Positions 1,378 to 22,334 of a stretch of 22,581 nt of DNA are shown piece by piece. Below the pieces are notes generated by a model that worked only from the letters and a program-made list of their open reading frames with translations, was not told the DNA's origin and ran no database searches. The position numbers and the translations under genes were made by a program. Source of the DNA: a virus. The stretch is from the IMG/VR virus record IMGVR_UViG_3300033153_004012, positions 1-22,581 of that record. One strand, given 5' to 3'. The stretch's first letter is position 1, and the number at the start of each line of letters is the position of its first letter.

Positions 1378-1383
1378 ATTATA
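1378..1383 (-). promoter_or_regulatory. Leftward early promoter -10 (TATAAT)
   Basis: Minus-strand TATAAT, 26 nt upstream of the AAAGGAG ribosome site of the 20-aa gene. There is no -35 hexamer. The palindrome at 1406-1419 ends 22 bp upstream, which puts its centre near -41.5 for this promoter. Confidence 0.75.
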
Positions 1384-1405
1384 ATGTAAAAATAAATCAT
1401 TTTCC

Positions 1406-1419
1406 TTGACTTGTATCAA
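1406..1419. promoter_or_regulatory. FNR/CRP-like palindrome, box 1 (TTGACTTGTATCAA)
   Basis: Half-sites TTGAC and ATCAA around a 4-bp spacer match the FNR-type form TTGAT-N4-ATCAA with a C at one variable position. The box sits between divergent -10 elements at 1378-1383 and 1442-1447 and is exactly 22 bp from each. A single bound dimer could act as a class II activator in both directions. The identity of the factor is inferred from site geometry only. Confidence 0.7.
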
Positions 1420-1441
1420 GAACTTTCTGAAAGGAATGTGC

Positions 1442-1447
1442 TACAAT
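1442..1447 (+). promoter_or_regulatory. Rightward early promoter -10 (TACAAT)
   Basis: TGTGCTACAAT resembles an extended -10 element, with a ribosome site and ATG starting about 20 nt downstream. No -35 hexamer is present at normal spacing. Box 1 ends 22 bp upstream, the same distance as at three other promoters in the window. Confidence 0.7.
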
Positions 1448-1468
1448 TTTACATAACAAGGAGAAAAG

Positions 1469-1591
1469 ATGATTGAAATTCAACTACTTATAATGTTTTA
1501 TAAAAATGAGTTAAAGCAGAGTCCGGGCTGTTTGGCGAGTAAAGTGATGTTGGATAGGAATAGAGCTAAATTAAAAGAGATGGAAGGATAA
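1469..1591 (+). CDS. Small hypothetical protein, 40 aa
   Basis: The ATG at 1469 follows AAGGAGAAAAG, a strong ribosome site, just downstream of the early promoter. The peptide begins MIEIQLLIMFYKNELKQSPG and ends RAKLKEMEG: a hydrophobic N-terminal helix followed by a charged helical tail. The next gene starts 4 nt after its stop, so it leads the rightward early operon. No family is recognised. First-gene position suggests an early role in the host takeover phase, which is an inference. Confidence 0.6.
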   Translation: MIEIQLLIMFYKNELKQSPGCLASKVMLDRNRAKLKEMEG

Positions 1592-1594
1592 TAG

Positions 1595-1894
1595 ATGATA
1601 GAATTTCCAGAGAAAAATATAAGAGTATTACTTCATGCAATGGGTATTAGCCATGTAAAAAGTGAATACACTCAACCAAATAAAAGATACTGTCCTTATC
1701 CAACATCTCATAGAAATTATTATCAGATAAAACAGTGCGATGATTGGGATGAGTGGGTTAAAAAAGGATATGCAGAATATAGACAGCATAAAGAAGAGTG
1801 GAGATGCTTTTATTTTGTAACTATGCAAGGCAAAGAATATTTAAAATCTATTGGTTACAAGTGGCATGAATTGAAAAGGAAGGTAGAAAAATGA
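1595..1894 (+). CDS. Hypothetical early protein, 99 aa
   Basis: ATG at 1595 lies behind GGAAGGATAATAG. The protein is rich in aromatic and basic residues (YTQPNKRYCPYPTSHRNYYQ in the first half; EWRCFYFVTMQGKEYLKSIG in the second). It looks like a compact single domain with a C-terminal helix ending in KRKVEK. I cannot assign a family. The stop overlaps the next start as ATGA (1891-1894), typical of coupled translation within this operon. Confidence 0.7.
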   Translation: MIEFPEKNIRVLLHAMGISHVKSEYTQPNKRYCPYPTSHRNYYQIKQCDDWDEWVKKGYAEYRQHKEEWRCFYFVTMQGKEYLKSIGYKWHELKRKVEK

Positions 1895-2085
1895 GAGCAG
1901 ATAAAAATAAGCGTGAAAAGTGGGTACAAGCCAAATACGAAGAGTTAGAAGCTGACGGTGATAACTTTGGTAGAAGTGCTGATGACTTGTGGGATGAAGC
2001 TCATGAAGCTTTTGATGCGATGATGGATGATGTGGGTGATGCTAAGTTTGAGGAAATGAGAGAGATGGAGTATGGGGATGATTAA
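1891..2085 (+). CDS. Small acidic hypothetical protein, 64 aa
   Basis: It starts at the ATG in the ATGA overlap with the previous gene. After a basic first ten residues (MRADKNKREK) the chain is strongly acidic and helical, with DLWDEAHEAFDAMMDDVGD and a final EYGDD. Highly acidic small phage proteins sometimes act as DNA mimics or host inhibitors, but nothing here shows this. It is followed by a 54-nt gap containing the AAGGAG site of the next gene. Confidence 0.65.
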   Translation: MRADKNKREKWVQAKYEELEADGDNFGRSADDLWDEAHEAFDAMMDDVGDAKFEEMREMEYGDD

Positions 2086-2139
2086 AAAATTTGAAAAAAA
2101 TAGTTCTTTACTATATGTAGTTAAAAAGGAGATTGAGAA

Positions 2140-2409
2140 ATGAAGTATACAGAAGTAAAAAAAGTCAATGGAATAAAAAAGAGTGATCTAAAAATAAAGA
2201 TTTGTGGAAATTGTAAAAATTATCTTTGGGATATTGAAGCAGATAGACATAATGGGATATGTAAATTAGCGATGCATAATGAAGATTTTACAATAATGGC
2301 TGCTCCTCTTGGTAGGCTTCATGCGTTAACTGGATGCGAGGATTGCTATTATTTCAATAAAATGAGCATAAAGGAAAACAACTTAGAGGTAAGGGAACTT
2401 TCATTATGA
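2140..2409 (+). CDS. Small cysteine-rich (zinc-binding-like) protein, 89 aa
   Basis: The ATG at 2140 follows AAAAAGGAGATTGAGAA. Cysteine spacing suggests a bound metal: C22-x-x-C25 (KICGNCKNYLW), a single cysteine in NGICKLAM, and a final CEDCYYF pair. The CGNCKNY...GICKL pattern is shared by many small uncharacterised phage and bacterial proteins. The stop overlaps the methyltransferase-like start as ATGA at 2406-2409, so the two are probably made together. Function unknown; a DNA- or protein-binding adaptor for its neighbour is possible. Confidence 0.7.
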   Translation: MKYTEVKKVNGIKKSDLKIKICGNCKNYLWDIEADRHNGICKLAMHNEDFTIMAAPLGRLHALTGCEDCYYFNKMSIKENNLEVRELSL

Positions 2410-3020
2410 AAATATTAGTTGCGTGTGAAGAGAGCCAAGCGGTTACAATAGAGTTTAGAGCATTAGGACATGAAGCGTATTCGTGTGATTTACAAGACTG
2501 TTCTGGCGGTCATCCAGAGTGGCACATCAAGGGTGATGTTTTGGAACAATTAGATAAAGGATGGGATATGATGATAGCATTTCCAACCTGCACATATCTA
2601 ACTAATGCTGGAGTCTGTTGGCTTTACAATAAAGACAAATTAAAAACTAAAAATACTGAAAGATGGTCTGATTTAAAAGATGGTGGTGAATTTTTTAAAA
2701 CACTTTTAAATGCTCCTATTCCGCTAATAGCAGTGGAAAATCCAATTCCACATAAATATGCCGTTGAAATAATAGGTCGAAAATATGACCAACTTGTGCA
2801 ACCTTATATGTTTGGTCATCCTGAGAGTAAAGCAACTTGCTTGTGGCTGAAAGGACTTGCTAAACTAAAAGAGACAGACAATGTTAAAGAGTTATGGAAA
2901 TCGCTTCCTAAAAAAGAAGCTCAAAGAATTCATTACATGTCGCCTGGTCCAGATAGGGCAAAACTGAGGTCAAAGACTTTTCTAGGCATAGCAAAAGCTA
3001 TGGCAGAACAATGGGGATGA
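2406..3020 (+). CDS. C5-cytosine-methyltransferase-like protein, lacking a target-recognition region
   Basis: Length 204 aa, short for a C5 DNA methyltransferase (usually over 300). Residues 1-32 look like the SAM-binding first strand and loop (KILVACEESQAVTIEFRALG then AYSCDLQDC). FPTCTYLT at about 59-66 sits where the catalytic PC loop should be, and VENP at about 110-113 corresponds to the ENV motif. PTC replaces the usual PPC. The later region has no obvious target-recognition domain. Members of this short family are common in phages and annotated as DNA cytosine methyltransferase. It may protect phage DNA or be a diverged non-catalytic fold. Fold confidence is moderate; activity is uncertain. 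Confidence 0.65.
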   Translation: MKILVACEESQAVTIEFRALGHEAYSCDLQDCSGGHPEWHIKGDVLEQLDKGWDMMIAFPTCTYLTNAGVCWLYNKDKLKTKNTERWSDLKDGGEFFKTLLNAPIPLIAVENPIPHKYAVEIIGRKYDQLVQPYMFGHPESKATCLWLKGLAKLKETDNVKELWKSLPKKEAQRIHYMSPGPDRAKLRSKTFLGIAKAMAEQWG

Positions 3021-3105
3021 GATCAACACTATGAGAAGTATTGTTCGTCAGCTATATAGACCTGTTAAAAGTTCTTTGAGTTTGTTTTGATATTTTTTCA
3101 TTTTC

Positions 3106-3119
3106 TTGACATAGGTCAA
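3106..3119. promoter_or_regulatory. FNR/CRP-like palindrome, box 2 (TTGACATAGGTCAA)
   Basis: Half-sites TTGAC and GTCAA around ATAG, in the 150-nt gap after the methyltransferase-like gene. It ends 22 bp before TATAAT at 3142-3147. TTGACA alone is not a -35, because it would lie 30 bp from the -10. No opposing promoter is seen to the left, in keeping with there being no leftward gene here. Confidence 0.7.
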
Positions 3120-3141
3120 TTACTTTTCTTTTTGATTGCTA

Positions 3142-3147
3142 TATAAT
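3142..3147 (+). promoter_or_regulatory. Internal rightward promoter -10 (TATAAT) for the recombination module
   Basis: Perfect TATAAT 24 nt before the ATG of the 37-aa gene at 3171, preceded by a T-rich tract and box 2. It would give a second transcript starting just ahead of the membrane peptides, coiled-coil, annealing protein and SSB genes. The rest of the gap (3021-3105) holds only a 19-codon ORF (MRSIVRQLYRPVKSSLSLF) without a good ribosome site. Confidence 0.75.
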
Positions 3148-3170
3148 ATGTTTAGAAAAGGAGATTTAAG

Positions 3171-3284
3171 ATGAGCGAATGGAATATACTTCATGCTCTT
3201 AAAATAGTTTTCTTGCTTTTTAAGTTGAGAGGAAGCGAGTTTAAAGATTTGCATGATTTTATAAAAAGGAGATACTGTGTTTAG
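3171..3284 (+). CDS. Small hydrophobic protein, 37 aa
   Basis: ATG at 3171 follows AAAAGGAGATTTAAG, an excellent ribosome site, directly behind the internal promoter. The peptide MSEWNILHALKIVFLLFKLR has a hydrophobic segment at about residues 6-17, then a polar tail ending RRYCV. A weak membrane anchor or amphipathic helix is plausible. It overlaps the next gene by 8 nt. No family is recognised. Confidence 0.55.
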   Translation: MSEWNILHALKIVFLLFKLRGSEFKDLHDFIKRRYCV

Positions 3285-3387
3285 TGATGCGCAATTATTT
3301 ATATATTTAGGGCTGTGTGTGTTGAATCTATTTTTATTTTATAGATTACATAAGTGTGAGACAAGAAGTTGGGGAGAAAATCCATGA
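3277..3387 (+). CDS. Small single-span membrane protein, 36 aa (GTG start)
   Basis: AAAAAGGAGATACT precedes a GTG at 3277. The product has one clear membrane segment (LFIYLGLCVLNLFLFYRL, about residues 7-24) and a polar tail. Its stop overlaps the ATG at 3384 as ATGA. The ribosome site lies inside the end of the preceding gene, so all three genes appear translationally coupled. Function unknown; small early phage membrane peptides can be superinfection or host-modifying factors, which is speculation here. Confidence 0.55.
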   Translation: MFSDAQLFIYLGLCVLNLFLFYRLHKCETRSWGENP

Positions 3388-4409
3388 GTAATGATAAAGG
3401 AGATGAGATGAGTGAAACAGTAGAAGCGGAAATAGTAGAGGATGAGTTTTTAGCTCCGGTGTTAAAAAATGCAAAAGAATTAACAACTCTTGTAAATACT
3501 GATGAGTTAATAAAAGAGTATAGTGAATTAGCAAGCATTGATATATCTACACCAGTTGAAGAAATATCACTAAAGTTTATTGAGATTGAAAAAGGATTTA
3601 AAGCATTTAGAAAAGCTAGAACTTCAATTGAAAGAACAAGAAAAGAAATCGGTGAGCCAGCTTTTCAGTTTCATAAAAAAGTAATTGAAATTGCAAAAGA
3701 GATTCAAAAAACTATCAATCCTTACGAGGAAAGATTAAAAGCTCTTGTTTCTAAAGTAGAGAATGAAGAAAAGCGTAAGCAGATAGAGATAGAAGAGGCA
3801 GAAGAACAGCGTGTAACTAACATAAAGCGTATTATTAACCAACTAAAAGATAATCCTACACAATGTATAGGGAAGACCTCAAAAGTTATCACAGAGGCTT
3901 TAGAATTACTTGAGTGTCCTAGTCGTGAAATCTTAGAAGAGTTTTTTGATGAAGCGTTTATGGCTTACACTCAATCACAAACACAAATGCTTCAAATGCT
4001 AGAAAATCAGAACCTTGTAGAAAATGCTCAAAAGATTCAAGAAGAGGCAAAGCAAAAAGCTGATGCAGAAGAAGTTGAAAGACAAGCATTGAGAGATGCA
4101 GAACAGAAAAAACTTGATGAAGAAAAAGCTGAATTTCGAAAACAAAAAGATGATTTTGAAGCTCAACAAAAAGCTATTCAAGAAGAAGCAGATAGAATGC
4201 AAGCTGCAAAAGAAGCTGATGAACTTATGGCGAAACAAAAAGCTGAGAAAAAACAAAAAGACCTTGAAAATAAAGAAGCTTACGATGAACTTTACAATGA
4301 GGCTTGGGACGACTTGCAAGAAGCTTTTGAAAACAAAAGAGAAGCATTACTTGATTTAATTATCGAGGGTAAAATCAGAAATGTGAAATGGAGTCCAAAT
4401 GGAAACTAA
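3384..4409 (+). CDS. Coiled-coil protein of the recombination module
   Basis: About 341 aa from ATG 3384 (GGGGAG 7 nt upstream and an ATGA overlap); ATG 3408, with AAAGGAG 5 nt upstream, is equally credible. Residues to about 110 are helical with a conserved-looking FKAFRKARTSIERTRKEIG region. A folded middle follows, then a long charged coiled coil rich in Glu, Lys, Gln and Ala (about 200-310), ending WDDLQEAFENKREALLDLI. Proteins of this build lie beside phage single-strand annealing proteins and SSB in many phages. The overlap with the annealing gene (11 nt) suggests joint function, perhaps as a partner of the annealing protein. Confidence 0.7.
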   Translation: MSNDKGDEMSETVEAEIVEDEFLAPVLKNAKELTTLVNTDELIKEYSELASIDISTPVEEISLKFIEIEKGFKAFRKARTSIERTRKEIGEPAFQFHKKVIEIAKEIQKTINPYEERLKALVSKVENEEKRKQIEIEEAEEQRVTNIKRIINQLKDNPTQCIGKTSKVITEALELLECPSREILEEFFDEAFMAYTQSQTQMLQMLENQNLVENAQKIQEEAKQKADAEEVERQALRDAEQKKLDEEKAEFRKQKDDFEAQQKAIQEEADRMQAAKEADELMAKQKAEKKQKDLENKEAYDELYNEAWDDLQEAFENKREALLDLIIEGKIRNVKWSPNGN

Positions 4410-5088
4410 TGATACAACTTTTGAAAAACTGCTAAAAGTAAATGTTTCTGACAAGGTGAAAGCTAAAGGTACAGGTAAACAGGCTCAAAACTATCTAAGT
4501 TGGAATTTTGCATGGGAGAAAATAAAAAAAGAATGTCCTGATGCAAACTACAAAGTTCTTCGTGCTGATAACGGGGTGCCATACTTTGCTGATGATTTCG
4601 GAATAATGATAATGACTGAGGTTACGATAGGCGAAGAAACTTTATCTATGTGGCTTCCTGTTCTTGACGGTGCCAATAGAGCATTAAAGAGAGAATCGTA
4701 TACATATAAGGCTATTAAATGGGAAGGCACTTATCCAAATAAACGCAAAAATGGCTTTGAAGACAAGACTGTTAATGCTGCAACAATGTTTGACATAAAT
4801 ACAGCAACTATGAGATGCCTTGTTAAAAACTTTGCGATGTTTGGGCTTGGCTTAAATCTTTATACCGGAGAAGATTTTGTAGAAAAGATTACAATTAACA
4901 CTGCTCAAAATTCTGAGATTATGAAGCTGATCCAAGATAATAACTTAGATTTGTTAGAGTTTTGTACAACTTATGGTATGCAAAAACCAATGGAACTACA
5001 TAGCACTAACTTTAATGATGCTATTGAGTTGTTAGAAGGTGCAATCAATGCTAAACAGTCTATCGCTGAATTCTCAAAAGCTAAGTAA
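4399..5088 (+). CDS. Single-strand annealing protein, Sak/DUF1071-like
   Basis: 229 aa. FEKLLKVNVSDKVKAKG, YLSWNFAWEKIKKECPDANY, MWLPVLDGANRA and AATMFDINTATMRCLVKNFA, ending in GLGLNLYTGED, match the DUF1071 family. This is a RecT/Redbeta-type annealing family typified by phage Sak proteins. Such proteins coat single-stranded DNA and anneal complementary strands during phage recombination and recombination-dependent replication. The C-terminal 60 residues are a helical accessory segment. The gene overlaps the coiled-coil gene by 11 nt, and its stop shares bases with the next start (TAATG). SSB four genes' width downstream fits the same pathway. No exonuclease partner is visible nearby. Confidence 0.87.
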   Translation: METNDTTFEKLLKVNVSDKVKAKGTGKQAQNYLSWNFAWEKIKKECPDANYKVLRADNGVPYFADDFGIMIMTEVTIGEETLSMWLPVLDGANRALKRESYTYKAIKWEGTYPNKRKNGFEDKTVNAATMFDINTATMRCLVKNFAMFGLGLNLYTGEDFVEKITINTAQNSEIMKLIQDNNLDLLEFCTTYGMQKPMELHSTNFNDAIELLEGAINAKQSIAEFSKAK

Positions 5089-5486
5089 TGAAAATAAAGC
5101 AAATAAAAGACGATGTTGCGGTTATTGAAATTGACTTTGATACACTAGTCCATATTGCTGCTTTATTGGGGGTAGAAATTAGTGAGTCTAATCTTAGAAC
5201 AATAAAGCAGAACTCAGCAATGCACAAATATTTTTCATTGTTGTCTGCTAAGTTAAATGAAGGTGGTTTATCAATAACTAAGACTTTAAAGGTAGATGTA
5301 GAATGGTCTCCGGTGAGTGTGAAGGACTTATTGTGGAGACCTATACAAGAAGCTGTGCTGAAGAAGAAAAGCACGACAAAGCTAAACAAAGACGAGATAA
5401 CGAAGGTATATGATGTGCTTAATAGAGCATTGGGTGAAAAGTTCGGATTTTCTGTGGAATTTCCGACTAGAGAATTAGGAGAGTAA
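5088..5486 (+). CDS. NinB-like recombination-associated protein
   Basis: 132 aa. After an N-terminal beta segment there is IKQNSAMHKYFSLLSAKLNE, reminiscent of the QN-x-x-x-H/W helix of NinB-type proteins. Then come VDVEWSPVSVKDLLWRPIQE, STTKLNKDEITKVYDVLNRA and LGEKFGFSVEFPTRE. Proteins with the same LWRPIQ...STT...VYDVLNR...FP order recur next to phage annealing proteins and SSB and are mostly annotated hypothetical. The gene is coupled (TAATG) to the annealing gene, supporting a recombination or single-strand-DNA role. The NinB comparison is by motif only. Confidence 0.65.
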   Translation: MKIKQIKDDVAVIEIDFDTLVHIAALLGVEISESNLRTIKQNSAMHKYFSLLSAKLNEGGLSITKTLKVDVEWSPVSVKDLLWRPIQEAVLKKKSTTKLNKDEITKVYDVLNRALGEKFGFSVEFPTRELGE

Positions 5487-5488
5487 GA

Positions 5489-5659
5489 ATGAAAAGTAAA
5501 AAAATAATGAAAATTGGTGCGTTATTACTATCGCTTGTGTGGTTTATCTTGTTTATCTACGCAGAGGAAGAAGTGCAAAAAGCAGCATTTTTAATAATTG
5601 CTAATGTTTATCTAGTTACTTCAGGATTGTTAGCTAATTTAGGAGAAGACGATGTTTAA
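5489..5659 (+). CDS. Small membrane protein, 56 aa, two predicted spans
   Basis: ATG at 5489 follows TTAGGAGAGTAAGA and comes 3 nt after the previous stop. After a basic start (MKSKKIMK) one hydrophobic span covers about residues 9-24 (IGALLLSLVWFILFIY). A second follows an acidic linker at about 32-50 (AFLIIANVYLVTSGLLA). It overlaps the SSB start by 8 nt, and the SSB ribosome site lies within it. A membrane protein inside a recombination operon is unexpected; no function can be assigned. Confidence 0.65.
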   Translation: MKSKKIMKIGALLLSLVWFILFIYAEEEVQKAAFLIIANVYLVTSGLLANLGEDDV

Positions 5660-6149
5660 TAAAGTAATACTATTAGGGAATTGTACAAAAGATGGAGAAT
5701 TAAAGTTTTCTCAGGGAGGCATGGGTATTTATAAAAACAGCTTGGCCGTTAGTAGAAAATTCTCAAAAGACGGTGTGAAGAAAGAGGAAGTTTTATTTAT
5801 TGATTTTACTGCATTTGCACGCACGAGCGAGATATGTAATCAATATTTAAGAAAAGGCTCTAAAATATTAGTTGAGGGTCGTTTAAATTTTGAACAATGG
5901 AATGACCAAGACGGACAAAAACGCTCTAAGCACTCTGTAACAGTTGAAACTTTGCAGATGCTAGACTCAAAAGGTGATAGCACAAGTAACGATAATAATT
6001 CTTATCAGCAACCACAACAACAACAACAAAGCCAAGCACCACAGCAACAGCAAAGTTATCAACAACAGCCTCAGCAGCAAAGTCGCCAGATGCCTAGTAG
6101 TGATTCTGTTCCTGTGATTGACATTAATGAAGATGAAATTCCTTTTTAG
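5652..6149 (+). CDS. ssb: Single-stranded DNA-binding protein (SSB)
   Basis: 165 aa. Residues 1-105 are an OB fold with the family start FNKVILLGNCTKDGELKF, the segment FIDFTAFARTSEICNQYLRK and GSKILVEGRLNFEQW. A Gln-rich linker (about 115-150) leads to an acidic tip ending EDEIPF, the form that recruits replication and repair partners. It binds single-stranded phage DNA during replication and recombination. AGGAGAAG lies just upstream of the ATG at 5652. The linker DNA is a run of CAA/CAG codons and could vary in length by slippage. Confidence 0.95.
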   Translation: MFNKVILLGNCTKDGELKFSQGGMGIYKNSLAVSRKFSKDGVKKEEVLFIDFTAFARTSEICNQYLRKGSKILVEGRLNFEQWNDQDGQKRSKHSVTVETLQMLDSKGDSTSNDNNSYQQPQQQQQSQAPQQQQSYQQQPQQQSRQMPSSDSVPVIDINEDEIPF

Positions 6150-6158
6150 GAAGATGGC

Positions 6159-6938
6159 ATGATAGAAAAAAGAGTATATGGAAAAAGTGAAAACGGTGTT
6201 TCTCGCTATGAGTATCTTCGTGTTTGTTCTTGTGGTGATGAGAAGTGGGTTCGCTATAAACCTAAAGCGGATACACTTTGTAGTGAGTGTAGTAGTAAGC
6301 AGTTGGGTTTTGCTATGAGTCAGAACAATCGCAAAGAGGGAAAAGATAAAGTTGTATATACTCGTACATGTGAAGATTGTGAGGATATCAGAACTGATTT
6401 AAAAGCAAAACCTGCAGAGCCTCAGCTTTGTTCTACTTGCTCTAAAAAAAGGACCGGTGTTGGTGCTTCTAGTGAAGAGTTTGCTCCTGCTCGTATTACT
6501 ATGACTAAAGCGAATGGTAAAGCTAAGACTATGTGGCTTAGGACTTGTGCAAATAAAGAGTGCGGAGAGAGTGCTTATGTTTCTTTTAAGCCGATGAAAG
6601 GTCAGATTTGTCAAGACTGTGCAAGAAGAGTTAGTCATAGTATGAAGGGTAAGATTGTTAAGCGACCTAAAGGAAATAAGCCTCGCACAAAACCCAACAA
6701 GCCTAGAAAAAGAACTGTTAAAAATGTTTCTTCTGAGGCTATTGAAAAGGCTAGAGAAATCAATCGAGAGCATAGAGAAGCTATTTGTGAAGCTAAAGTG
6801 ATTCTTCAAAAGCTTACTGATGATGAAATGGTTGCAAAGTTCTTGGAAACAAATGAAGTTAAAATTGCTCCAGTGTTGTTGGATTCTAGTCCTTTTTCAA
6901 CTGGAATGCAATCATCTAGTTTAAATATAATGAGTTAA
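6159..6938 (+). CDS. Triple zinc-ribbon protein with basic linker
   Basis: 259 aa. Three tandem units share the pattern aromatic-x-x-R-x-C...C...x15-20...C-x-x-C. Unit 1 has C23, C25, C41, C44; unit 2 has C71, C74, C91, C94; unit 3 has C130, C135, C151, C154. Each holds four cysteines suited to one zinc ion. Residues 163-188 are very basic (KIVKRPKGNKPRTKPNKPRK), consistent with nucleic-acid binding. A helical segment (about 190-230) and a Ser-rich tail follow. It is last in the rightward operon and ends 5 bp from the convergent late operon. I do not recognise the family; a DNA- or RNA-binding role is inferred. Confidence 0.75.
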   Translation: MIEKRVYGKSENGVSRYEYLRVCSCGDEKWVRYKPKADTLCSECSSKQLGFAMSQNNRKEGKDKVVYTRTCEDCEDIRTDLKAKPAEPQLCSTCSKKRTGVGASSEEFAPARITMTKANGKAKTMWLRTCANKECGESAYVSFKPMKGQICQDCARRVSHSMKGKIVKRPKGNKPRTKPNKPRKRTVKNVSSEAIEKAREINREHREAICEAKVILQKLTDDEMVAKFLETNEVKIAPVLLDSSPFSTGMQSSSLNIMS

Positions 6939-6943
6939 TGTGA

Positions 6944-7318
6944 TTAATTTATCCCAATTGAAACTAAATAGCTACTCACATTAAAGTTAGGGCATGTTTT
7001 AGAGCTTATTTCGTTATGTCCTACGATCTCATCGGCTTTGAAGTTTTTATCTTTTAAGAGCTTCTCTAAGCTGATGAATTGTGCATGAGTGAAGCTATCT
7101 GTTCCAATAAGACAAATACCTAGAGCATCATTATGACCTCTTGCGTGTGAACCTTTCCAGTATTCAGGTCTGCCGTTTTCGATAGTGCCGTCTTCTAAGA
7201 TAATATAGTGATAACCTACGCCGTCCCAACCTCTTGCCAGATGCCATTTGTGGATAGTCTCTGCGTTATCTCCGCGACCTTGTGGTGAATCACTGCAATG
7301 TATTACTGCTTTTATCAT
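6944..7318 (-). CDS. Endolysin: N-acetylmuramoyl-L-alanine amidase (T7 lysozyme-like)
   Basis: 124 aa, a single Amidase_2 domain. IHCSDSPQG supplies the first zinc ligand H7, VGHNE gives H101 and SSKTCPNF gives C109. Y36 (GVGYHYII) and K107 match the catalytic Tyr and Lys of T7 lysozyme. GSHARGHNDALGICLIG is the central family motif. It cuts the amide bond between muramic acid and the stem peptide. There is no signal peptide, so it needs the holin to reach the wall. It is the last gene of the leftward late operon; its start overlaps the previous stop (ATGA). It converges with the zinc-ribbon gene with no visible terminator between. Confidence 0.93.
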   Translation of the reverse strand: MIKAVIHCSDSPQGRGDNAETIHKWHLARGWDGVGYHYIILEDGTIENGRPEYWKGSHARGHNDALGICLIGTDSFTHAQFISLEKLLKDKNFKADEIVGHNEISSKTCPNFNVSSYLVSIGIN

Positions 7319-7737
7319 TTCTTAATTCTCCCTTTTAGATATGTTATTTGAGTTTCATTTTTGCTCACTTTTTCTAACAAATAGATATGATTTTTTTTTA
7401 TTTCTTGTAGAATATCTTTTACCATTGATTTTTGCTCTGCATCTTTCGTTAGTTCTCTCTCTGCTTGCACAGCAATATGTGTCGCATTTTCTTCGCTTAG
7501 TCTGAAATGATCTAAAGTTATCCACGTGCCAAAGCCTAAAGCGATGGCAATAACCCCATAAAGAGTTGTTCTTAAATTAGCTAACTTTGAGTGAACTGGC
7601 AAAAACTTTTCAATATGGGTTACAAGCTTATCAACATCTTTTGTTGTTCGTTCCTGAAGTGCAACAAGTTGTCCTATTGCGACAGTATTGTCGATTGTCT
7701 CTTGTGATTTTTCTCTTCTCTCTTCTGAATCACTCAT
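7315..7737 (-). CDS. Single-span membrane protein with coiled coil (lysis cassette)
   Basis: 140 aa from the ATG at 7737, which has AAGGA 6 nt upstream and overlaps the previous stop as ATGA; an ATG at 7743 is too close to the ribosome site. A long helix precedes a hydrophobic span (TLYGVIAIALGFGTWITL, about residues 60-78) and a C-terminal coiled coil (DILQEIKKNHIYLLEKVSKN). It sits between the o-spanin and the amidase. It could be a second holin, an antiholin or a membrane scaffold; the sequence does not decide. Confidence 0.7.
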   Translation of the reverse strand: MSDSEERREKSQETIDNTVAIGQLVALQERTTKDVDKLVTHIEKFLPVHSKLANLRTTLYGVIAIALGFGTWITLDHFRLSEENATHIAVQAERELTKDAEQKSMVKDILQEIKKNHIYLLEKVSKNETQITYLKGRIKK

Positions 7738-13418: not shown

Positions 13419-13426
13419 AATTAATC

Positions 13427-15619: not shown

Positions 15620-16125
15620 GACCATAATCCTATACTATCATCTATGTTTAATGAAGTGTCTGCAACAACATCAGTTCTATTTTCTGATAAATTAAAACTG
15701 ATTCTTAGCCCTTCTTCTTCTGATTCAGTGTAAGAGAAATTCTCTAAAAAGTATCCACTATAATTTCCGTATTTTGTTTTGAAGGAAATTGTTTCTTTAT
15801 TGTTTGAGATTTCATCTAATCTGTTTAATTGTCTCTTCGTATATGTTTGAACAAATTTAGTTCCTAGAATGTTTGGAAGATTCGTAATTGATCTACTGTC
15901 AATTATTGTCTGCGCTGTATCAGTTACTATGATTTCTACTGATAAGACTGTAGGGCTATTGTGAACTGCATCAGTTAAGTCAAAGCCATCCTCAATAGGT
16001 CTTTTTGTAACGACATTATTTACAACTTGATTGACACTAAGAAACCCGTCAAAAGCAACAGTGATTCCACTTTCATCACTTTCAAAAACATTTTTAGAAA
16101 ATCCGCTTATTTGAATTAATGCCAT
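15616..16125 (-). CDS. Baseplate hub-associated protein, Dit-like
   Basis: 169 aa, predominantly beta. The VTKRPIEDGFDLTDAVHNSP motif followed by LSVEIIVTD is the hallmark of the Dit-like family found between tape measure and hub genes in Mu/Pam3-type myophages. It likely links tail tube to baseplate. It starts 3 nt after the tape measure stop and overlaps the plug gene by 4 nt. Confidence 0.78.
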   Translation of the reverse strand: MALIQISGFSKNVFESDESGITVAFDGFLSVNQVVNNVVTKRPIEDGFDLTDAVHNSPTVLSVEIIVTDTAQTIIDSRSITNLPNILGTKFVQTYTKRQLNRLDEISNNKETISFKTKYGNYSGYFLENFSYTESEEEGLRISFNLSENRTDVVADTSLNIDDSIGLWS

Positions 16126-16128
16126 TTT

Positions 16129-17508
16129 TTAATCTCCAAAAATTCTATTTGATGTTTGCTGGAAGTATTGGTTTATTTGTTCCACTACGCTTCCGTCTGC
16201 TCCACTAACATTTATCGTAATATTTGCATCTCTTGCACCGCCAATATTATTAGTGATTGCCTGAGCTTGTGGACCTCCTCCAAAGAAACCACTAATAGAA
16301 TTCGATATTGAATCAAAACTAGGAATACTGATTTTATTAGAAATTGCACCGATTGACTTTATTATCTCAGCAATTTTGGTAAATGAAGATATCCAAAAAT
16401 TTATAAGGGTTTCGAATTGACTTAAAATTATTTCAAACACACCTTTAATGTTATTCGCAAACTCAAGGATAGATTCAACTTTGATACCTAAAGTATCTAA
16501 GAAGCCGCCACTGATACTATCTTTATTGCTTAATGCAAATATAATATCTTCAATGATTAAAAATAATGCTAATCCTAGCGCAAGAGGAACAGCAAAAGCC
16601 AAAGTCATTTTTCTTTTCAATACTAGAAAAGCAACAGATGCAGCAAGAACAGCATTTTCAAGTCCACCCATTAATCCAACTATCCTAGATATTAAAGAGA
16701 ATATTCTTGTTAATACAGTAAATAATACATTTGAAGCTTTTGTTATCGCTCTAAAAAACTTATCAAACCCTGCTGTTATTTCTTTCATATTCTTTTGAGC
16801 AAATTTTACAAACACTTGTAAGAACTTATTTATATTTACTAGAAGTTGAGAACCTATCTTATTTGTCATTCCACTTATAACTGTAGTTGCTCTTAACCAT
16901 ACCGCTTGAAACCCTCCAGCGAGTCGTTTTTGTTCGGCTGATACTGTGCCACCAAAACTATCAAACTCTTCTCCTAGAGCTTTTATATTAGCACTACCAC
17001 TATCTAATGCTTGAAGTAGATTTGTGCTAACTCCAATTCTTTCAAGTAGGTTTATTTTTTCTGAATTTGATTGAATATTTTGTATTGAATCGCTTATCGC
17101 TAGAAGTAAATCAGAAGAGTTTTGAAAGTCTGCAGGATTAATGCCTAAGCGTCCAAAAGCTTCAATGTCACCTTTGCCTCTTAATATATCTTCTTGGGCT
17201 TTTGTGAGGTTCTTTAGCGAAGCAGTGACATCATCGCCACTTGCTCCAAAATCTTCGGCAGCAAACTTTACCCGTTGATATTCTTCTGTAGTCGTATTTA
17301 GTCTTAATGCTAATTTGTCAAGTTGATCGTTTTGATCTGCCACACTTTTTGCAATTGAAAAAGCAACACCTTGTGCAGCAATTATCGCTGCTCCAAGTTT
17401 AACAAATCCAGCAACAGATTTTTGAAGAGATTTATTGAACCCTTCAAATGTTTTTTTATCCCATTTAAAATTTAATTCATAATCTAATTCTTCAACGGTT
17501 GTTCCCAA
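16129..17508 (-). CDS. Tail tape measure protein (TTG start)
   Basis: 459 aa. Only TTG at 17508 fits: AAAAGG lies 7 nt upstream and no ATG is near. The N-terminus contains FNKSLQKSVAGFVKLGAAII and a long helical region (QNDQLDKLALRLNTTTEEYQ). Membrane-like segments lie at about 265-285 and 290-325, and the C-terminus ANITINVSGADGSVVEQIN is typical of tape measure ends. It sets tail length. At about 1.5 angstroms per residue a short tail of some 70 nm is expected. It is directly downstream of the frameshifted chaperone, as usual. Confidence 0.9.
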   Translation of the reverse strand: MGTTVEELDYELNFKWDKKTFEGFNKSLQKSVAGFVKLGAAIIAAQGVAFSIAKSVADQNDQLDKLALRLNTTTEEYQRVKFAAEDFGASGDDVTASLKNLTKAQEDILRGKGDIEAFGRLGINPADFQNSSDLLLAISDSIQNIQSNSEKINLLERIGVSTNLLQALDSGSANIKALGEEFDSFGGTVSAEQKRLAGGFQAVWLRATTVISGMTNKIGSQLLVNINKFLQVFVKFAQKNMKEITAGFDKFFRAITKASNVLFTVLTRIFSLISRIVGLMGGLENAVLAASVAFLVLKRKMTLAFAVPLALGLALFLIIEDIIFALSNKDSISGGFLDTLGIKVESILEFANNIKGVFEIILSQFETLINFWISSFTKIAEIIKSIGAISNKISIPSFDSISNSISGFFGGGPQAQAITNNIGGARDANITINVSGADGSVVEQINQYFQQTSNRIFGD

Positions 17509-17532
17509 AATGAATCCTTTTGATAATTATAT

Positions 17533-18185
17533 CTAAAAAATAGATAGGTACTCTTTAGGTAAGTTTAGATCATCTGCTCTAATTGTTTCTAATCCTTGCA
17601 GCTCTTGTTTAGTTTTATCTTTAGATCGAGAAGATTTAACCTTTCCATTTTTCATGCTCTGAATGAAATAGTAAGTAGCTTCAACTTTCTTAAAGTCTTT
17701 ATATCTCATTTCCATAAACTCGCTAAATGAGATTACTTTCTGAGATATTAAAACAGAGCCTCTAAAGAAAAGAGGTGCGATTCTATTTTGTTGTAAAAAC
17801 TTAACTATTTCTTGCGGATTACTTTCCGCTTTGGCTTTCCCTGTTCTGCTGAATCCTCATTCTGTAAATAATCAGCCATGATTTCCATAATCTCTGGTAA
17901 ACATTCCTGAAATACTTTTAACTTTAATGGCATCTCTTGTAAATCTTCTTCACTTAATTCATTGCCATTTTCATCCGTATAACAAATTGTTGCAAAGCGG
18001 ATACTATTCTCTTTTATGGCATCCATTACACTTTTCATCATCTCGGTTGATAGTTGTTCTTGCTTCTCTGGAGTCATTCCCATAGCATTTGTCATTAACG
18101 GCATTACGCTATCAAATATATAATCTTCTAATTCACACAACAGTTTATTTTTAACAGTCTTTAAATCTTTTTTAATCAGTATCAT
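17533..18185 (-). CDS. Tail assembly chaperone, frameshift product (gpGT-like)
   Basis: The extended product arises by a -1 shift at GGGAAAG (17835-17841). The first 117 residues come from the upstream frame, then 100 residues from the -1 frame, beginning AKAESNPQEIVKFLQQNRIA and ending LNLPKEYLSIF. The -1 frame is closed just upstream by a TGA (within AATGAG, near 17863) and stays open to 17533. The segment contains EFMEMRYKDFKKVEATYYF, like gpT-type C-termini. In lambda-type tails the long form bridges the tape measure and tube protein during assembly and is absent from the virion. The fusion is inferred from sequence. Confidence 0.85.
17805..18185 (-). CDS. Tail assembly chaperone, short form (gpG-like)
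   Basis: 126 aa. The start is ATG 18185 because AAAGGAG lies 8 nt upstream; a GTG at 18209 is upstream of that site. The protein is helical and acidic (PEKQEQLSTEMMKSVMDAIK, LSEEDLQEMPLKLKVFQECL) with a basic tail (KPKRKVIRKK) encoded past the slip site. It sits between the tail tube and tape measure genes, the canonical gpG location. Most ribosomes should finish at the TAG at 17805-17807. Confidence 0.85.
   Translation of the reverse strand: MILIKKDLKTVKNKLLCELEDYIFDSVMPLMTNAMGMTPEKQEQLSTEMMKSVMDAIKENSIRFATICYTDENGNELSEEDLQEMPLKLKVFQECLPEIMEIMADYLQNEDSAEQGKPKRKVIRKK
17814..17841 (-). promoter_or_regulatory. Programmed -1 ribosomal frameshift signal
   Basis: In transcript order: slippery heptamer G-GGA-AAG in the zero frame (17841-17835), a 5-nt spacer (CCAAA), then stem GCGGA, loop AAGTAA, stem TCCGC (17829-17814). 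The zero-frame TAG follows 6 nt later. GGGAAAG is the same heptamer used by phage lambda G-T. Heptamer frame, spacer and hairpin are all right for a -1 shift. Confidence 0.9.
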
Positions 18186-18209
18186 CTTCTTATCTCCTTT
18201 GATTAACAC

Positions 18210-18258
18210 TTTACGAAGCCCACCGGAGATGAATGTGGGAGAAAATGGACTTCGTAAA
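18210..18258 (-). other. Nested stem-loop between tube and chaperone genes
   Basis: Outer 9-bp perfect stem TTTACGAAG/CTTCGTAAA (18210-18218 with 18250-18258) and inner 5-bp stem CCCAC/GTGGG (18219-18223 with 18235-18239). It lies just before the AAAGGAG of the chaperone gene. No U-tract follows in either direction. A role in mRNA processing or in lowering chaperone expression relative to the tube protein is plausible. Confidence 0.7.
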
Positions 18259-18279
18259 ATGTAATAGACTCAAAAGAGC

Positions 18280-18681
18280 CTATTTTTCTAATGATAGAAT
18301 TTGTAAGTTACCTTTGAAAGTAACTGAGACAGTTTCAACATCTGACGAACCTGTGCTATCGCCAATTGCAATCTGAGTGGGATTTGCAGAAGCCATGAAT
18401 CCTTTGAATCCTACTCCTTCATCATTGATTGTTAATGGAAAGTTTACATCAGTTTGAATCTGAAGCAGTAAAGCATCTAAGCCTTCTGTACCTTTAACTA
18501 TATTTGCTGTAATTGCCGTGATAATAGCGTTTTTATTTCGCTTAATATGCACTACTGCGTCCAATGCGCTTAAAGAATCACCTCTTTCACCTACATCGTA
18601 AGTGATAGAACCTTCAGCGAGTCCTTTAATCGGAATACCACCATAAACAAAGCTTATGAGTCCTTTTGTTTGTTCAGCCAT
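18280..18681 (-). CDS. Tail tube protein (DUF3277-like)
   Basis: 133 aa, beta-rich. FVYGGIPIKGLAEGSITYDV and ERGDSLSALDAVVHIKRN, then ITANIVKGTEGLDALLLQIQ and VETVSVTFKGNLQILSL, match the tube family adjacent to DUF3383 sheaths. It polymerises into the inner tube. It starts 2 nt after the sheath stop with a GGAGGCTTAATC ribosome site, the strongest in this block. That fits a major structural protein. Confidence 0.85.
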   Translation of the reverse strand: MAEQTKGLISFVYGGIPIKGLAEGSITYDVGERGDSLSALDAVVHIKRNKNAIITAITANIVKGTEGLDALLLQIQTDVNFPLTINDEGVGFKGFMASANPTQIAIGDSTGSSDVETVSVTFKGNLQILSLEK

Positions 18682-18683
18682 GA

Positions 18684-20096
18684 TTAAGCCTCCGTTTTAA
18701 TTGTAATAGTATTTGTCACAAAATGACCAGCAACATCTTCAAAGTATGAATATGTACCAATGATTTCACGATTTGCTATGTTTCCAGCAGTGAAAGCAAT
18801 CTCAAACGGCACATCTGCGTTGTTGTCGATGATGCCTTGATTTATCGCTTGTTGGAATACAGGCTGTGTGATGTTTTCTAATAGAGTAAATCCATCTAAG
18901 TTAATCCCTACTTTTTTTGTAGTTAGTAAATTATAAATCGCTTCATCTAACTGGATCTTTACCCAAATGCTACCAAGTGAAGTATCAACGAAATCACCGT
19001 CTTTTAAAGTAGTACCCTCTTTGATGAAAGATTGACCAACACGCTCATTTGTTCCTGTATAAACATTTGTGTTTTTATCAAGAGTATTTTGAAGCTCTGC
19101 ATTTGTCATATCTACTGAAGCACTATTTTTAGGTTTCATAAACTTAACAGTTTGAGAACCAATATCTTTAGCCATTAATTTACCCATTACACCAAATGAT
19201 ACAAAGTCAGTGGCTACATCAGTATAATAGAAGGATACATTTCCAACTCTTAGCAGATCATCACCGCTTAAGTTATCATAGAAGTTTTTATTTGTTGAAG
19301 ATACATCAGTTGTAACGCTTGTGATTACTGCTGCTGCGCTAGAGTCTATAAAAACATCATACTCTTTATTGAATACGAATTGAGTTAAATCTGCACCATC
19401 TCCAACTACTTGATTTGTAAGCCCTAAAGCTTTATCTAGTCCAACAACTACAAAGTTAAAACCTGCAGTGCTATCATTTTCTAGCTCAGTTAGTTTTCCA
19501 ATTATATCTTTATCGCTTACTGTTAAGAAGGACTTAGCAATCAATGCTGATATGTCTGTTCCAACTGGAGATGCTGGAGTTGCTATAGTATCAACTATTG
19601 AAGCTACCCCTGTTGAATCAGAAGTAATCACCAAAGTGTTTCCAATGCCGACTGAACAAGTTGCACCAGCACTTGCACTAATAAGACCGGCAGTGATAAC
19701 ATCAGCTATGTCTTGAATATTTCCGATGCTTGTAAAATCTAGTGCTGCAATTGCTTGTGTTACAGAATCCACATCTACATCAAACTCACCGTCTGTGATA
19801 GCGATAAAGTCATTTGGAGCAATTGAAATAGTTGTTAAGCTTCCTGAACTTTCACCCGTTACCGGTACTAAATAAAGAGTTGTTGCACCCTCACTAAAAT
19901 AAGCCTCTGCCATTGCATAAGCTTCTGAAGTTGTCAGAAAGTCCTCACCTACCTCTTCAATAGTAGTGTATAATCTCTTTAACTCTGTAATTACAGTTGT
20001 GTCAGTGATTAGACCTACCGCCTTATTTATATCAATAAATGTTGTCGCTAACTCTTTTTGTACATCAGTTAAGACAGCTCTACGATTTAATGCCAT
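18684..20096 (-). CDS. Tail sheath protein (DUF3383-like)
   Basis: 470 aa. The start is ATG 20096 with AAGGA 7 nt upstream (MALNRRAVLTDVQKELATTF); the frame extends to 20132 but without a ribosome site. LTTSEAYAMAEAYFSEGATT, IKEGTTLKDGDFVDTSLGSI and WVKIQLDEAIYNLLTTKKVG, with the closing beta domain (FVTNTITIKTEA), match DUF3383 contractile sheath proteins. A repetitive, Thr/Ser/Ala-rich middle domain is probably surface exposed. It establishes the phage as a myovirus. Confidence 0.88.
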   Translation of the reverse strand: MALNRRAVLTDVQKELATTFIDINKAVGLITDTTVITELKRLYTTIEEVGEDFLTTSEAYAMAEAYFSEGATTLYLVPVTGESSGSLTTISIAPNDFIAITDGEFDVDVDSVTQAIAALDFTSIGNIQDIADVITAGLISASAGATCSVGIGNTLVITSDSTGVASIVDTIATPASPVGTDISALIAKSFLTVSDKDIIGKLTELENDSTAGFNFVVVGLDKALGLTNQVVGDGADLTQFVFNKEYDVFIDSSAAAVITSVTTDVSSTNKNFYDNLSGDDLLRVGNVSFYYTDVATDFVSFGVMGKLMAKDIGSQTVKFMKPKNSASVDMTNAELQNTLDKNTNVYTGTNERVGQSFIKEGTTLKDGDFVDTSLGSIWVKIQLDEAIYNLLTTKKVGINLDGFTLLENITQPVFQQAINQGIIDNNADVPFEIAFTAGNIANREIIGTYSYFEDVAGHFVTNTITIKTEA

Positions 20097-20131
20097 TTTG
20101 TTTTCCTTATGTTGAAATGGATATAGTTCCA

Positions 20132-20599
20132 CTAAACTACATCAACAAGTGTTACTTCACCTATATGACTATTGTCATAACTAAAAATGAAGTCGAAGAG
20201 ATAGCCTTCTTCTTCCCTGGTATTTTTTAATTGAGGGAGTGAAGCCATTGCACCTAAAGCCATAAAAGAAACACCTTGATTACTCAAAAGTTCCTTATTT
20301 GATATTGTATCAAAACTATTGTATAAATTTCTAGCATTTAGAAAACTATTTGCACCACGAATATCTAAACTCATTGTCACTATTGTTAAAGGAGTGTATT
20401 TTTCATCTAATTTTGTATTGTCGGATTGATTGATTGAGAGACTTGTATTATTAATAAAACTTGCTTTTTCTTCATTTAGTATATAGAATGTTACATAGTC
20501 ATCGTCTGGTGCTTTAAAAGTCAATGCACCGTCAAATACATCAATATCATTTAAAACATTTTCTATATAATCAACAATCGGTATTCTAAAGTCAATCAT
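20132..20599 (-). CDS. Tail terminator-like protein (LIC_12616 family-like)
   Basis: 155 aa. The segment YVTFYILNEEKASFINNTSL, then LTIVTMSLDIRGANSFLNAR and NLYNSFDTISNKELLSNQGV, resembles the phage neck terminator family called LIC_12616. The position immediately before the sheath gene is where the terminator that caps the tail tube is found. AAAGGATTAGA precedes the ATG. The end (REEEGYLFDFIFSYDNSHIG) is the usual beta-strand closing these proteins. Confidence 0.75.
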   Translation of the reverse strand: MIDFRIPIVDYIENVLNDIDVFDGALTFKAPDDDYVTFYILNEEKASFINNTSLSINQSDNTKLDEKYTPLTIVTMSLDIRGANSFLNARNLYNSFDTISNKELLSNQGVSFMALGAMASLPQLKNTREEEGYLFDFIFSYDNSHIGEVTLVDVV

Positions 20600-20600
20600 T

Positions 20601-20945
20601 CTAATCCTTTATAAGTTCAGCGAAGAACTTACTATAATCGCCAACAACTTTAATATTTATTTTCATTACACGATAGTTTTGTGATCTATAAGAAACATTA
20701 TCATCGGTCAATATGTCTGCATCAACAGGAGCGAATATCTTTATCATATCTTCTAAGTGATAACCGTCTTGCGCAATGGCTTTAATATCTTCGTTAGATG
20801 CCGGATGAACATAGCAGTTGATTGCTGTGGGAGTTTGTGGAGTTCTTACTTCTCTGCCAGTAACAACCGTCACAACAAACCTTGTAAACTCAAAATCTTG
20901 TGAAAATTCTGTTATTACTTCTTCGTATAATTCAAAATCGATCAT
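20601..20945 (-). CDS. Head-tail connector or stopper-like neck protein
   Basis: 114 aa, beta-rich. FVVTVVTGREVRTPQTPTAI, then IKIFAPVDADILTDDNVSYR and NYRVMKINIKVVGDYSKFFA resemble small neck proteins in which a beta barrel carries a Y-R-V motif. It overlaps the preceding gene as ATGA and lies between the gp10-like protein and the terminator. Stopper or adaptor cannot be separated from sequence alone. Confidence 0.62.
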   Translation of the reverse strand: MIDFELYEEVITEFSQDFEFTRFVVTVVTGREVRTPQTPTAINCYVHPASNEDIKAIAQDGYHLEDMIKIFAPVDADILTDDNVSYRSQNYRVMKINIKVVGDYSKFFAELIKD

Positions 20946-21391
20946 AATTTACCAACTGCAAAAGTTACTGATTGCAACATGTGACCTGTATTTATTAAAG
21001 GGTTTGAACTTCCTTTAGCACTTATTGTCGCTGGATTATTTGCCGGACTTCTCAATGCTGTGATTTCTTTTTGAACATGTCCTTGTCCTAGTATCCCCAA
21101 TTTATTAGCAAATTTTGTAAAATCAAGTTTTTCTATTTTGCCTAACTCTTTTAAAATTAACTTTTTATATGTGCTTTTATTTTTAGCAAAAGATATTGCC
21201 ATGAAAGGTCTTTTTGGCACACCTAGACCAAAGTTATTAACAGTCGCTTTAAAGACCGCATTTACACCTTGATTATCTTCTGAGTGGGTTTCTTTTTTAA
21301 CTGCTGGGAAACCTACTTTTATTGATGTGTTTTCTATACTATTAATCTTTTTAGGTAAATCAAATACTTTTTTTCTTTTTAATTTATTCAT
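20942..21391 (-). CDS. Neck/tail completion-like protein (HK97 gp10-like)
   Basis: 149 aa. VNNFGLGVPKRPFMAISFAK, LGILGQGHVQKEITALRSPA and ISAKGSSNPLINTGHMLQSV form a signature seen in phage proteins between the head adaptor and terminator. It has a P-x-RPF strand, a helix with G-x-x-x-Q-x-x-I, and NPL-x-x-TG near the end. These are usually called HK97-gp10-like or tail completion proteins. The N-terminus is strongly basic (NKLKRKKVFDLPKK). Confidence 0.72.
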   Translation of the reverse strand: MNKLKRKKVFDLPKKINSIENTSIKVGFPAVKKETHSEDNQGVNAVFKATVNNFGLGVPKRPFMAISFAKNKSTYKKLILKELGKIEKLDFTKFANKLGILGQGHVQKEITALRSPANNPATISAKGSSNPLINTGHMLQSVTFAVGKL

Positions 21392-21409
21392 TTTATTTAC
21401 CTAAAATCA

Positions 21410-21766
21410 TTATACGAAAACACCGCCAAAGTTAAATGCTCTGAGTTGCAAATAACGCTGACCATATTTAGTTGATGAGAAAAACAGATCATTAGAGTTT
21501 ATCGTTGCCGGAGTTGCAAAAGAAACGCTTACTCCATCAACAGATTTAGATACTGCGTCTTTTATAGAAGAAGTGCCACTCTTGTTATTGATAGTGAATA
21601 GATGAGCTTGAAGCATAAGAATCGCTAAGTCGTTACAACCATTGTCCTCTTGATAAATAGCACCAAAATAACACTGGTAATCATCTTCACTTGTCGCAAA
21701 GTAATCATCTACTTTAGTTGTGTCGAACTCCGGAAACTTTGCTTTAAAGTCAGCTATGAAAGACAT
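21410..21766 (-). CDS. Head-tail adaptor-like protein (DUF4054-like)
   Basis: 118 aa. FKAKFPEFDTTKVDDYFATS at the start, then CNDLAILMLQAHLFTINNKS, IKDAVSKSVDGVSVSFATPA and the final STKYGQRYLQLR match DUF4054, a helical adaptor that usually follows the major capsid gene. Here the gene upstream is only a 67-aa unknown, so the capsid gene is not in its usual place. Confidence 0.82.
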   Translation of the reverse strand: MSFIADFKAKFPEFDTTKVDDYFATSEDDYQCYFGAIYQEDNGCNDLAILMLQAHLFTINNKSGTSSIKDAVSKSVDGVSVSFATPATINSNDLFFSSTKYGQRYLQLRAFNFGGVFV

Positions 21767-21969
21767 TAGTTCTCTTTTTCTGCATATTTAGTAACGATTA
21801 TGATTGGTGGATTATCAACGCTTAGTTTAATGTCTAGTGATAGAATAGAATCAGGAATATTAATAACCCCTTTTAGAGCTTTTAATATTTCTTCATTTGT
21901 TGGAGTGATTAAATCTCTTTTGATGTTTGTGTGAATGTCAACATTCAGTTCGCTAATAAGCTTTGCCAT
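21766..21969 (-). CDS. Small hypothetical protein, 67 aa
   Basis: It begins directly before the stop of the basic protein and overlaps the adaptor start by 1 nt, so the three are coupled. MAKLISELNVDIHTNIKRDL then LKALKGVINIPDSILSLDIK suggest an alpha/beta fold with a C-terminal strand (PPIIIVTKYAEK). No family is recognised. It may be a small head or neck component. Confidence 0.6.
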   Translation of the reverse strand: MAKLISELNVDIHTNIKRDLITPTNEEILKALKGVINIPDSILSLDIKLSVDNPPIIIVTKYAEKEN

Positions 21970-22236
21970 TTAAACTCTCTCTATCTTTTTAAGTGAGATA
22001 AGTTTCTCTATGTGTTCCATAAAGATTTCATCATCTAGTTGTGCTTTTGTAAGAGTATATGGATTATAGTCTCTTAGAACGATAGACAAAGATAACTTCA
22101 TCGGGTTTCTAATCAACTTTCTAACCTTTAAAGAAACCTCTTTAACTACTTTTTTAATAGCAGGTTTTTCAACTTTAACAGTTTTAACTGTTTCTGTTTC
22201 TTCTTTAGTAGCTGGTTTCTTTCTAGGTCTTCCCAT
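21970..22236 (-). CDS. Small basic protein with an N-terminal GRPRKKP (AT-hook-like) motif
   Basis: 88 aa. The start is the ATG at 22236, 7 nt from AGGAG; an in-frame ATG at 22242 is inside the spacer. The first ten residues MGRPRKKPAT contain a GRP core like that of AT-hooks. A Lys/Val-rich stretch follows (KTVKVEKPAIKKVVKEV) and then a helical C-terminus (TKAQLDDEIFMEHIEKLISL). First gene of the late operon, it may bind A+T-rich DNA or serve in head completion; evidence is limited to composition. Confidence 0.62.
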   Translation of the reverse strand: MGRPRKKPATKEETETVKTVKVEKPAIKKVVKEVSLKVRKLIRNPMKLSLSIVLRDYNPYTLTKAQLDDEIFMEHIEKLISLKKIERV

Positions 22237-22269
22237 AATCAATCTCCTATTTAAATTTAAGTCTGCCTA

Positions 22270-22275
22270 ATTATA
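22270..22275 (-). promoter_or_regulatory. Late (structural/lysis) operon promoter -10, extended TGCTATAAT
   Basis: Minus-strand ATGCTATAATTAGG has a perfect -10 with an upstream TG. It is 34 nt before the first late gene. No other clear promoter was seen between here and 6944, so it probably drives the full 15-kb operon. Box 3 ends 17 bp upstream and so covers the normal -35 position, unlike the 22-bp spacing of the other promoters. Confidence 0.75.
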
Positions 22276-22292
22276 GCATAAGTTTTATATTC

Positions 22293-22306
22293 TTGATATA
22301 AGTCAA
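22293..22306. promoter_or_regulatory. FNR/CRP-like palindrome, box 3 (TTGATATAAGTCAA)
   Basis: Half-sites TTGAT and GTCAA around ATAA. It lies 22 bp from the rightward TATAAT (22329-22334) and 17 bp from the leftward one (22270-22275). The same bound dimer could activate the rightward gene and occlude, or differently activate, the late promoter. Confidence 0.7.
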
Positions 22307-22328
22307 GGATTTTGTTTTTTTGTTAGTA

Positions 22329-22334
22329 TATAAT
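22329..22334 (+). promoter_or_regulatory. Rightward promoter -10 (TATAAT)
   Basis: TATAAT after a T-rich tract, 25 nt before the ATG at 22359, with AAAGGATAAGAA as the ribosome site. Box 3 ends 22 bp upstream, the same as the other two rightward promoters. Confidence 0.75.

Follow-up and report, generated by a model that had tools for sequence, protein, structure and literature searches.

FNR-type palindromes at a fixed distance from -10 hexamers in a putative Sulfurimonas phage

Palindromes and -10 hexamers at the locus

The window analysed here is a virus record of 22,581 bases (IMG/VR record IMGVR_UViG_3300033153_004012) with a guanine-plus-cytosine (GC) content of 34%, and all positions are 1-based on this whole stretch. 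A putative DNA methyltransferase, an SSB and a Sak-type single-strand annealing protein are among the products of its rightward genes, and a leftward block at 6944-22242 encodes an amidase, a tail fibre, a tape measure and a tail-sheath-like protein. An initial annotation had described three palindromes TTGAY-N4-RTCAA in the promoter regions, with four -10 hexamers exactly 22 nucleotides (nt) away, as a phage-wide regulon of FNR/CRP-type boxes. An exact pattern scan led to the same three palindromes and no others (1406-1419, 3106-3119 and 22293-22306), all of them intergenic and none in coding DNA of the window, and the four TANAAT hexamers were found at the coordinates given before, one leftward (1378-1383) and three rightward (1442-1447, 3142-3147 and 22329-22334). 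The features of the locus are as follows.

1378..1383, - strand: -10 hexamer TATAAT, 22-nt gap; predicted driver of a 20-amino-acid open reading frame at 1352 and of the winged-helix gene at 1036-1284
1406..1419, no strand: palindrome TTGACTTGTATCAA (extended CTTGAC-N4-ATCAAG); putative operator shared by two divergent promoters
1442..1447, + strand: -10 hexamer TACAAT, 22-nt gap; predicted driver of 1469-3020 (small open reading frames, putative DNA methyltransferase)
3106..3119, + strand: palindrome TTGACATAGGTCAA, 5' of the recombination/replication operon; orthologue at G126:14653
3142..3147, + strand: -10 hexamer TATAAT, 22-nt gap; predicted driver of 3171 (37 amino acids), then of 3396-6938
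22270..22275, - strand: -10 hexamer TATAAT, 17-nt gap to the palindrome at 22293 (centre -36.5); leftward promoter of the structural genes
22293..22306, + strand: palindrome TTGATATAAGTCAA (extended CTTGAT-N4-GTCAAG), separating the leftward structural operon from the rightward operon
22329..22334, + strand: -10 hexamer TATAAT, 22-nt gap; predicted driver of a 58-amino-acid open reading frame at 22359-22535 and onward
1036..1284, - strand: small winged-helix protein (HTH_39), candidate phage regulator and rival box-binding factor
5652..6149, + strand: SSB gene, basis of the host assignment

In 1000 dinucleotide shuffles of the window a mean of 0.24 palindromes was obtained, compared to three observed (a single shuffle reached three), and complete boxes with hexamer amounted to a mean of 0.003 and at most one, compared to four observed. 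At 1406 and 22293 the palindrome is longer, CTTGAY-N4-RTCAAG. An orthologue of the divergent 1406 site with both 22-nt arms is present in the relative G126/L014, and orthologues of the 22293 site were found at G003:825 and G137:2689. The leftward TATAAT at 22270-22275 was absent from the initial annotation, and its 17-nt gap at the structural-operon promoter also occurs in the relatives G003 and G137. From these positions the box is predicted to drive the winged-helix operon, the methyltransferase operon, the recombination/replication operon (3396-6938 encodes the annealing protein and SSB) and the right-end operon.

The absence of a -35 element from the box promoters, also part of the initial annotation, agrees with a sigma-70 consensus scan of positions 1-7400, in which no -35/-10 pair was listed at the box -10 hexamers, the promoter at 22.3 kilobases lying outside the scanned stretch. 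Sigma-70 promoters of Campylobacterota usually lack a -35, and its absence alone is weak evidence.

Conservation in related phages and in host genomes

A total of 49 palindromes from 15 phage records was scored in both directions for the distance to TANAAT, and the resulting gap spectrum showed 31 at 22 nt, one at 21 nt and none at 20, 23 or 24 nt. About ten further arms carry TATACT, TACTAT, TATAGT, TATCAT or TATTAT at exactly 22 nt, and a second cluster of 14 TANAAT hits lies at gaps of 16-19 nt, mostly on the opposite arm. Two relatives were picked by protein homology alone, namely G001 via the annealing protein and G003 via the sheath, and a TANNAT -10-like hexamer stands at exactly 22 nt from all five of their palindromes (three in G001, two in G003). 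As many as ten palindromes are present in the 52.8-kilobase phage record G132. An all-against-all comparison of the translated proteins yielded phage clusters with few or no genes in common; the box-bearing phages are not just one family. The proposal that early genes are controlled in this way holds in part, with boxes also driving small accessory genes and methyltransferases: many box-driven genes of the relatives are small and hypothetical or encode pentapeptide-repeat proteins or DNA methyltransferases, and box-bearing insertions occur inside the structural block as well.

The host of the phage is very probably Sulfurimonas, an assignment drawn from one gene, SSB, and from the box itself. 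The SSB of the window aligns with SSBs of related phages, and the best 80 GTDB-genome hits of this alignment are Sulfurimonas or related and unnamed Campylobacterota bins. SSB was used because no prophage was found in GTDB genomes when these were searched with the baseplate-type protein. Among 50,697 GenBank phages a near relative of the window phage was not found, and searches of these phages with the sheath and the annealing protein led to distant phages of other hosts only.

The same architecture is present in the genomes of the host group. Box-N22-TANAAT gave 346 matches in 120 Sulfurimonas-group genomes compared to 4 for the reversed control, a count that is slightly inflated by sites in conserved coding DNA (L185, L189, L190, L195, L200 and L202), which reads from its sequence as a spore-photoproduct-lyase-like gene. 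When gaps from 10 to 36 nt were scanned in 12 Sulfurimonas genomes, 54 of 138 matches fell at 22 nt, 14 at 21 nt and 7 at 23 nt, with about 2-3 at each remaining gap; here too, a few of the 22-nt matches lie in conserved coding DNA. Genes just 3' of the Sulfurimonas boxes include napA, a NosD-containing cluster, hemerythrin, a COX1-family oxidase, NnrS and the fused siroheme decarboxylase AhbAB of the heme d1/alternative heme pathway. The phage-type extended box CTTGATNTANGTCAA with a 22-nt gap was found 17 times in 399 Campylobacterales genomes, compared to 0 in the control, at positions 5' of nrfHA, napA, narG, nifS, NnrS-type clusters and cytochromes. Such neighbours tie the motif to the respiration of nitrate, nitrite and nitric oxide.

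At a recurrent host site (for example G012:C4:259480 and G073:C1:2902483) the box is followed by TANAAT at gap 21 and by another TATAAT at gap 34, possibly reflecting tandem promoters; the host spacing spectrum has a side peak of 34-35 nt as a result.

Candidate regulator and competing explanations

Class II promoters of Escherichia coli FNR carry TTGAT-N4-ATCAA centred at -41.5, and both this geometry and the nearly identical box correspond to the phage promoters. The candidate Sulfurimonas proteins are unlike E. coli FNR in having no N-terminal iron-sulphur cysteine cluster, which was not found in any of the CRP/FNR sequences examined from this genus and led us to reject an iron-sulphur FNR. 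CRP was rejected as well, as the boxes are TTGAY-N4-RTCAA and do not have the half-sites of TGTGA-N6-TCACA. Box-rich Sulfurimonas genomes hold 3-5 proteins with the CRP-type helix-turn-helix domain PF13545, differing in type, while among six box-less genomes the PF13545 hit is absent from three and only a divergent type is present in one. An FNR-type recognition helix (E/A-x-x-S-R) with the sequence P[EA]TLSR is found in many of the Sulfurimonas CRP/FNR proteins. For one of these, the closest match among solved structures is Pseudomonas aeruginosa DNR (3dkw, E 2e-10); the recognition helix reads IQPETLSR in the Sulfurimonas protein and IQPETFSR in DNR. According to a 2019 review, an orthologue of FNR or NarP is not known in Campylobacterota (PMC6682613). 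The factor is most likely a host DNR/Nss-type regulator, so that the CRP/FNR family named in the initial annotation stands, whereas CRP and iron-sulphur FNR as its members do not.

The published DNR motif of Pseudomonas and denitrifying beta-proteobacteria is CTTGATnnnnATCAAG (PMC1274295), and the phage box has the extended half-site CTTGAY and the 4-nt centre in common with the DNR regulon. It differs in lying in promoters of a phage, in having GTCAA as the usual downstream half, and in a host that belongs to the Campylobacterota. The Nss regulators of Wolinella succinogenes and Nitrosophilus labii come from the same phylum and share the core motif; in N. labii, TTGA-N6-TCAA starts 48-49 nt 5' of where the napA, norE and nosB transcripts begin (PMC11539149), a position matching the predicted -48 to -35. 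These Nss sites belong to chromosomal denitrification genes; the search in that paper covered those upstream regions only, and the passages on them do not mention phage promoters. NssR of Campylobacter jejuni, as far as it is cited in PMC1274295, also belongs to the CRP/FNR superfamily and the same phylum and has the same half-site spacing; its box TTAAC-N4-GTTAA is not matched by the TTGAC/TTGAT half-sites observed here.

It is probable, judged from the sequences, that the palindromes are class II promoter sites activated by a host DNR/Nss-type regulator that responds to nitrate, nitrite or nitric oxide. The prediction that a CRP/FNR-family protein binds at the class II position is strongly supported by the conservation in relatives, the same Sulfurimonas box and spacing, and the nitrogen-oxide genes among its targets. 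In Sulfurimonas and other Campylobacterales this regulator appears to control the respiration of nitrate, nitrite and nitric oxide. At the four promoters with a 22-nt gap its dimer would cover -48 to -35 (centre -41.5) and act as a class II activator in contact with RNA polymerase, substituting for the -35 element. As the sites would be provided by the phage and the sensor by the host, box-driven transcription would rise with nitrogen-oxide respiration and with it the replication/recombination, winged-helix and right-end operons, in relatives also small accessory genes. At 22293 the same dimer would be centred at -36.5 relative to the leftward structural promoter, overlapping its -35 region, and would probably hold this promoter down, so that one dimer may activate in one direction and repress in the other; such repression of the structural genes is possible. 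The sites, their spacing and conservation, the matching host architecture with the genes behind it and the presence of suitable host regulators are seen in the sequences; binding, activation, repression, the signal and the choice among the host paralogues are what we infer. The wider proposal that unrelated Sulfurimonas phages convergently use the host nitrate/nitric oxide regulator, and that the dimer at 22.3 kilobases is a two-way switch, is rather doubtful; in this case the rightward operon would be activated at -41.5 and the structural-gene promoter blocked at -36.5, and the progress of infection would follow the respiratory state of the host.

Several observations weigh against activation by the host regulator. 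Only 3 gap-22 boxes were present in 77 SSB-bearing phage loci that had not been selected for the box, and the collection-wide box pattern was found in 78 stretches compared to 61 with the gap shifted by five and 39 with the pattern reversed. The phage consensus is CTTGAT-nTAn-GTCAAG, while the commonest host form is TTGAT-N4-ATCAA, and G opens the second half-site in 78% of the phage sites compared to 23% of 34 host sites; the outer C/G is also stronger in the phage consensus than in the host, in part due to selection by the scan pattern. The difference may reflect one specific host paralogue, the particular species of host, or sites tuned to high affinity. Finally, the phage records are fragments, and a phage-encoded regulator could be missed for this reason.

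As the collection-wide excess over the controls is modest, we regard it as confined to a subset of phages and do not claim a virus-wide phenomenon. The true excess is made up of gap-22 sites followed by a ribosome site and a start codon and clusters in the metagenomes 3300033141/148/149/153 and in multi-copy contigs, only the Sulfurimonas-type cluster stands out, and the box system is restricted to some Sulfurimonas phages; the published Sulfurimonas prophage SNW-1 contains zero matches to TTGAY-N4-RTCAA. The term phage-wide regulon thus applies to some phages and is not universal. That the palindromes merely happen to lie close to AT-rich -10-like hexamers could be suspected because TANAAT abounds in a genome of 34% GC and the shifted-gap counts also reach dozens across the collection. 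Such a coincidence can hardly be credited, given the shuffles of the window, and for this phage group it is refuted by the gap-22 peak in the spacing spectrum of the relatives. In addition, a ribosome site and a start codon follow 12-50 nt on in 28 of 83 gap-22 sites, compared to 4 of 61 and 5 of 39 control sites.

The palindromes might instead be operators of a phage-encoded regulator unrelated to host respiration, either the winged-helix protein or an unseen repressor or activator. The winged-helix gene itself lies behind one boxed promoter, several identical operators at promoters are typical for phage repressors, and the deviation of the phage consensus from that of the host would fit as well. 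We consider this improbable: no protein is common to all 14 box-bearing record sets (the widest group, a methyltransferase, is found in 5 of 14 and the winged-helix protein in 4 of 14), which makes a shared phage-encoded binding protein unlikely even though the records are incomplete, and the same box and 22-nt spacing genus-wide in the host, at genes of nitrogen-oxide respiration, would not be explained. No cNMP-binding domain was found in the 22 phage records searched for it. Binding of a host CRP/FNR-family protein mainly as a repressor, or of a metabolic sensor for signals other than nitrogen oxides (CRP-like or for oxygen), is likewise unlikely. It would be in line with the different PF13545 types held by box-rich Sulfurimonas genomes and with the 14 phage hits at 16-19 nt, a distance at which the -35 would lie under the dimer, but class II activation agrees with the 31 arms at exactly 22 nt, the phage-type box is found at nrf, nap, nar and NnrS-type genes, and the half-sites are TTGA and not the TGTGA of CRP.

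Significance and accompanying observations

Phage promoters with sites for host transcription factors are known in general. The present phages differ from these by up to ten palindromes per phage, most of them at one fixed spacing, and by the putative tie to a respiration regulator. The initial annotation had named no precedent among phages of this group, and searches of the open literature (subscription papers were outside their scope) revealed no phage-wide CRP/FNR-type regulon. Sulfurimonas is widespread in sulfidic water, vents, aquifers, and marine and groundwater habitats, and contributes to denitrification. Apparently the virus reads the breathing state of its host and times its own genes by it; if phages do read the host nitrate/nitric oxide regulator, their reproduction would be coupled to the redox state, a point of relevance to the control of nitrogen cycling by viruses. 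The boxes also offer a bioinformatic handle on the DNR/Nss-type regulon of Sulfurimonas, a genus in which CRP/FNR subtypes with PETLSR, PATLSR, REAISR and RKVVNR helices coexist.

Some details of the relatives and of the tail region were observed in addition. An extra antisense gene of 100 amino acids lies between two structural genes of G003 and G126 under a box promoter of its own (gap 22, TATCAT); it is missing from the window (18210-18300; L006:5100-5250) and looks like a box-driven accessory gene insertion. Pentapeptide-repeat genes stand directly 3' of box promoters in two related phages (L001:300-620 and L014). In a viral-classed record of 348,532 bases (G139, L079), a gap-22 box lies 5' of the gene for NrdD, an anaerobic ribonucleotide reductase and a classic case of regulation by anaerobiosis. 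The tail region of the window encodes a collagen-like protein with Gly-X-Y repeats (12453-13418), flanked by two paralogous proteins (11752-12120 and 13427-13843), of which the relative L008/L094 apparently has only one copy.

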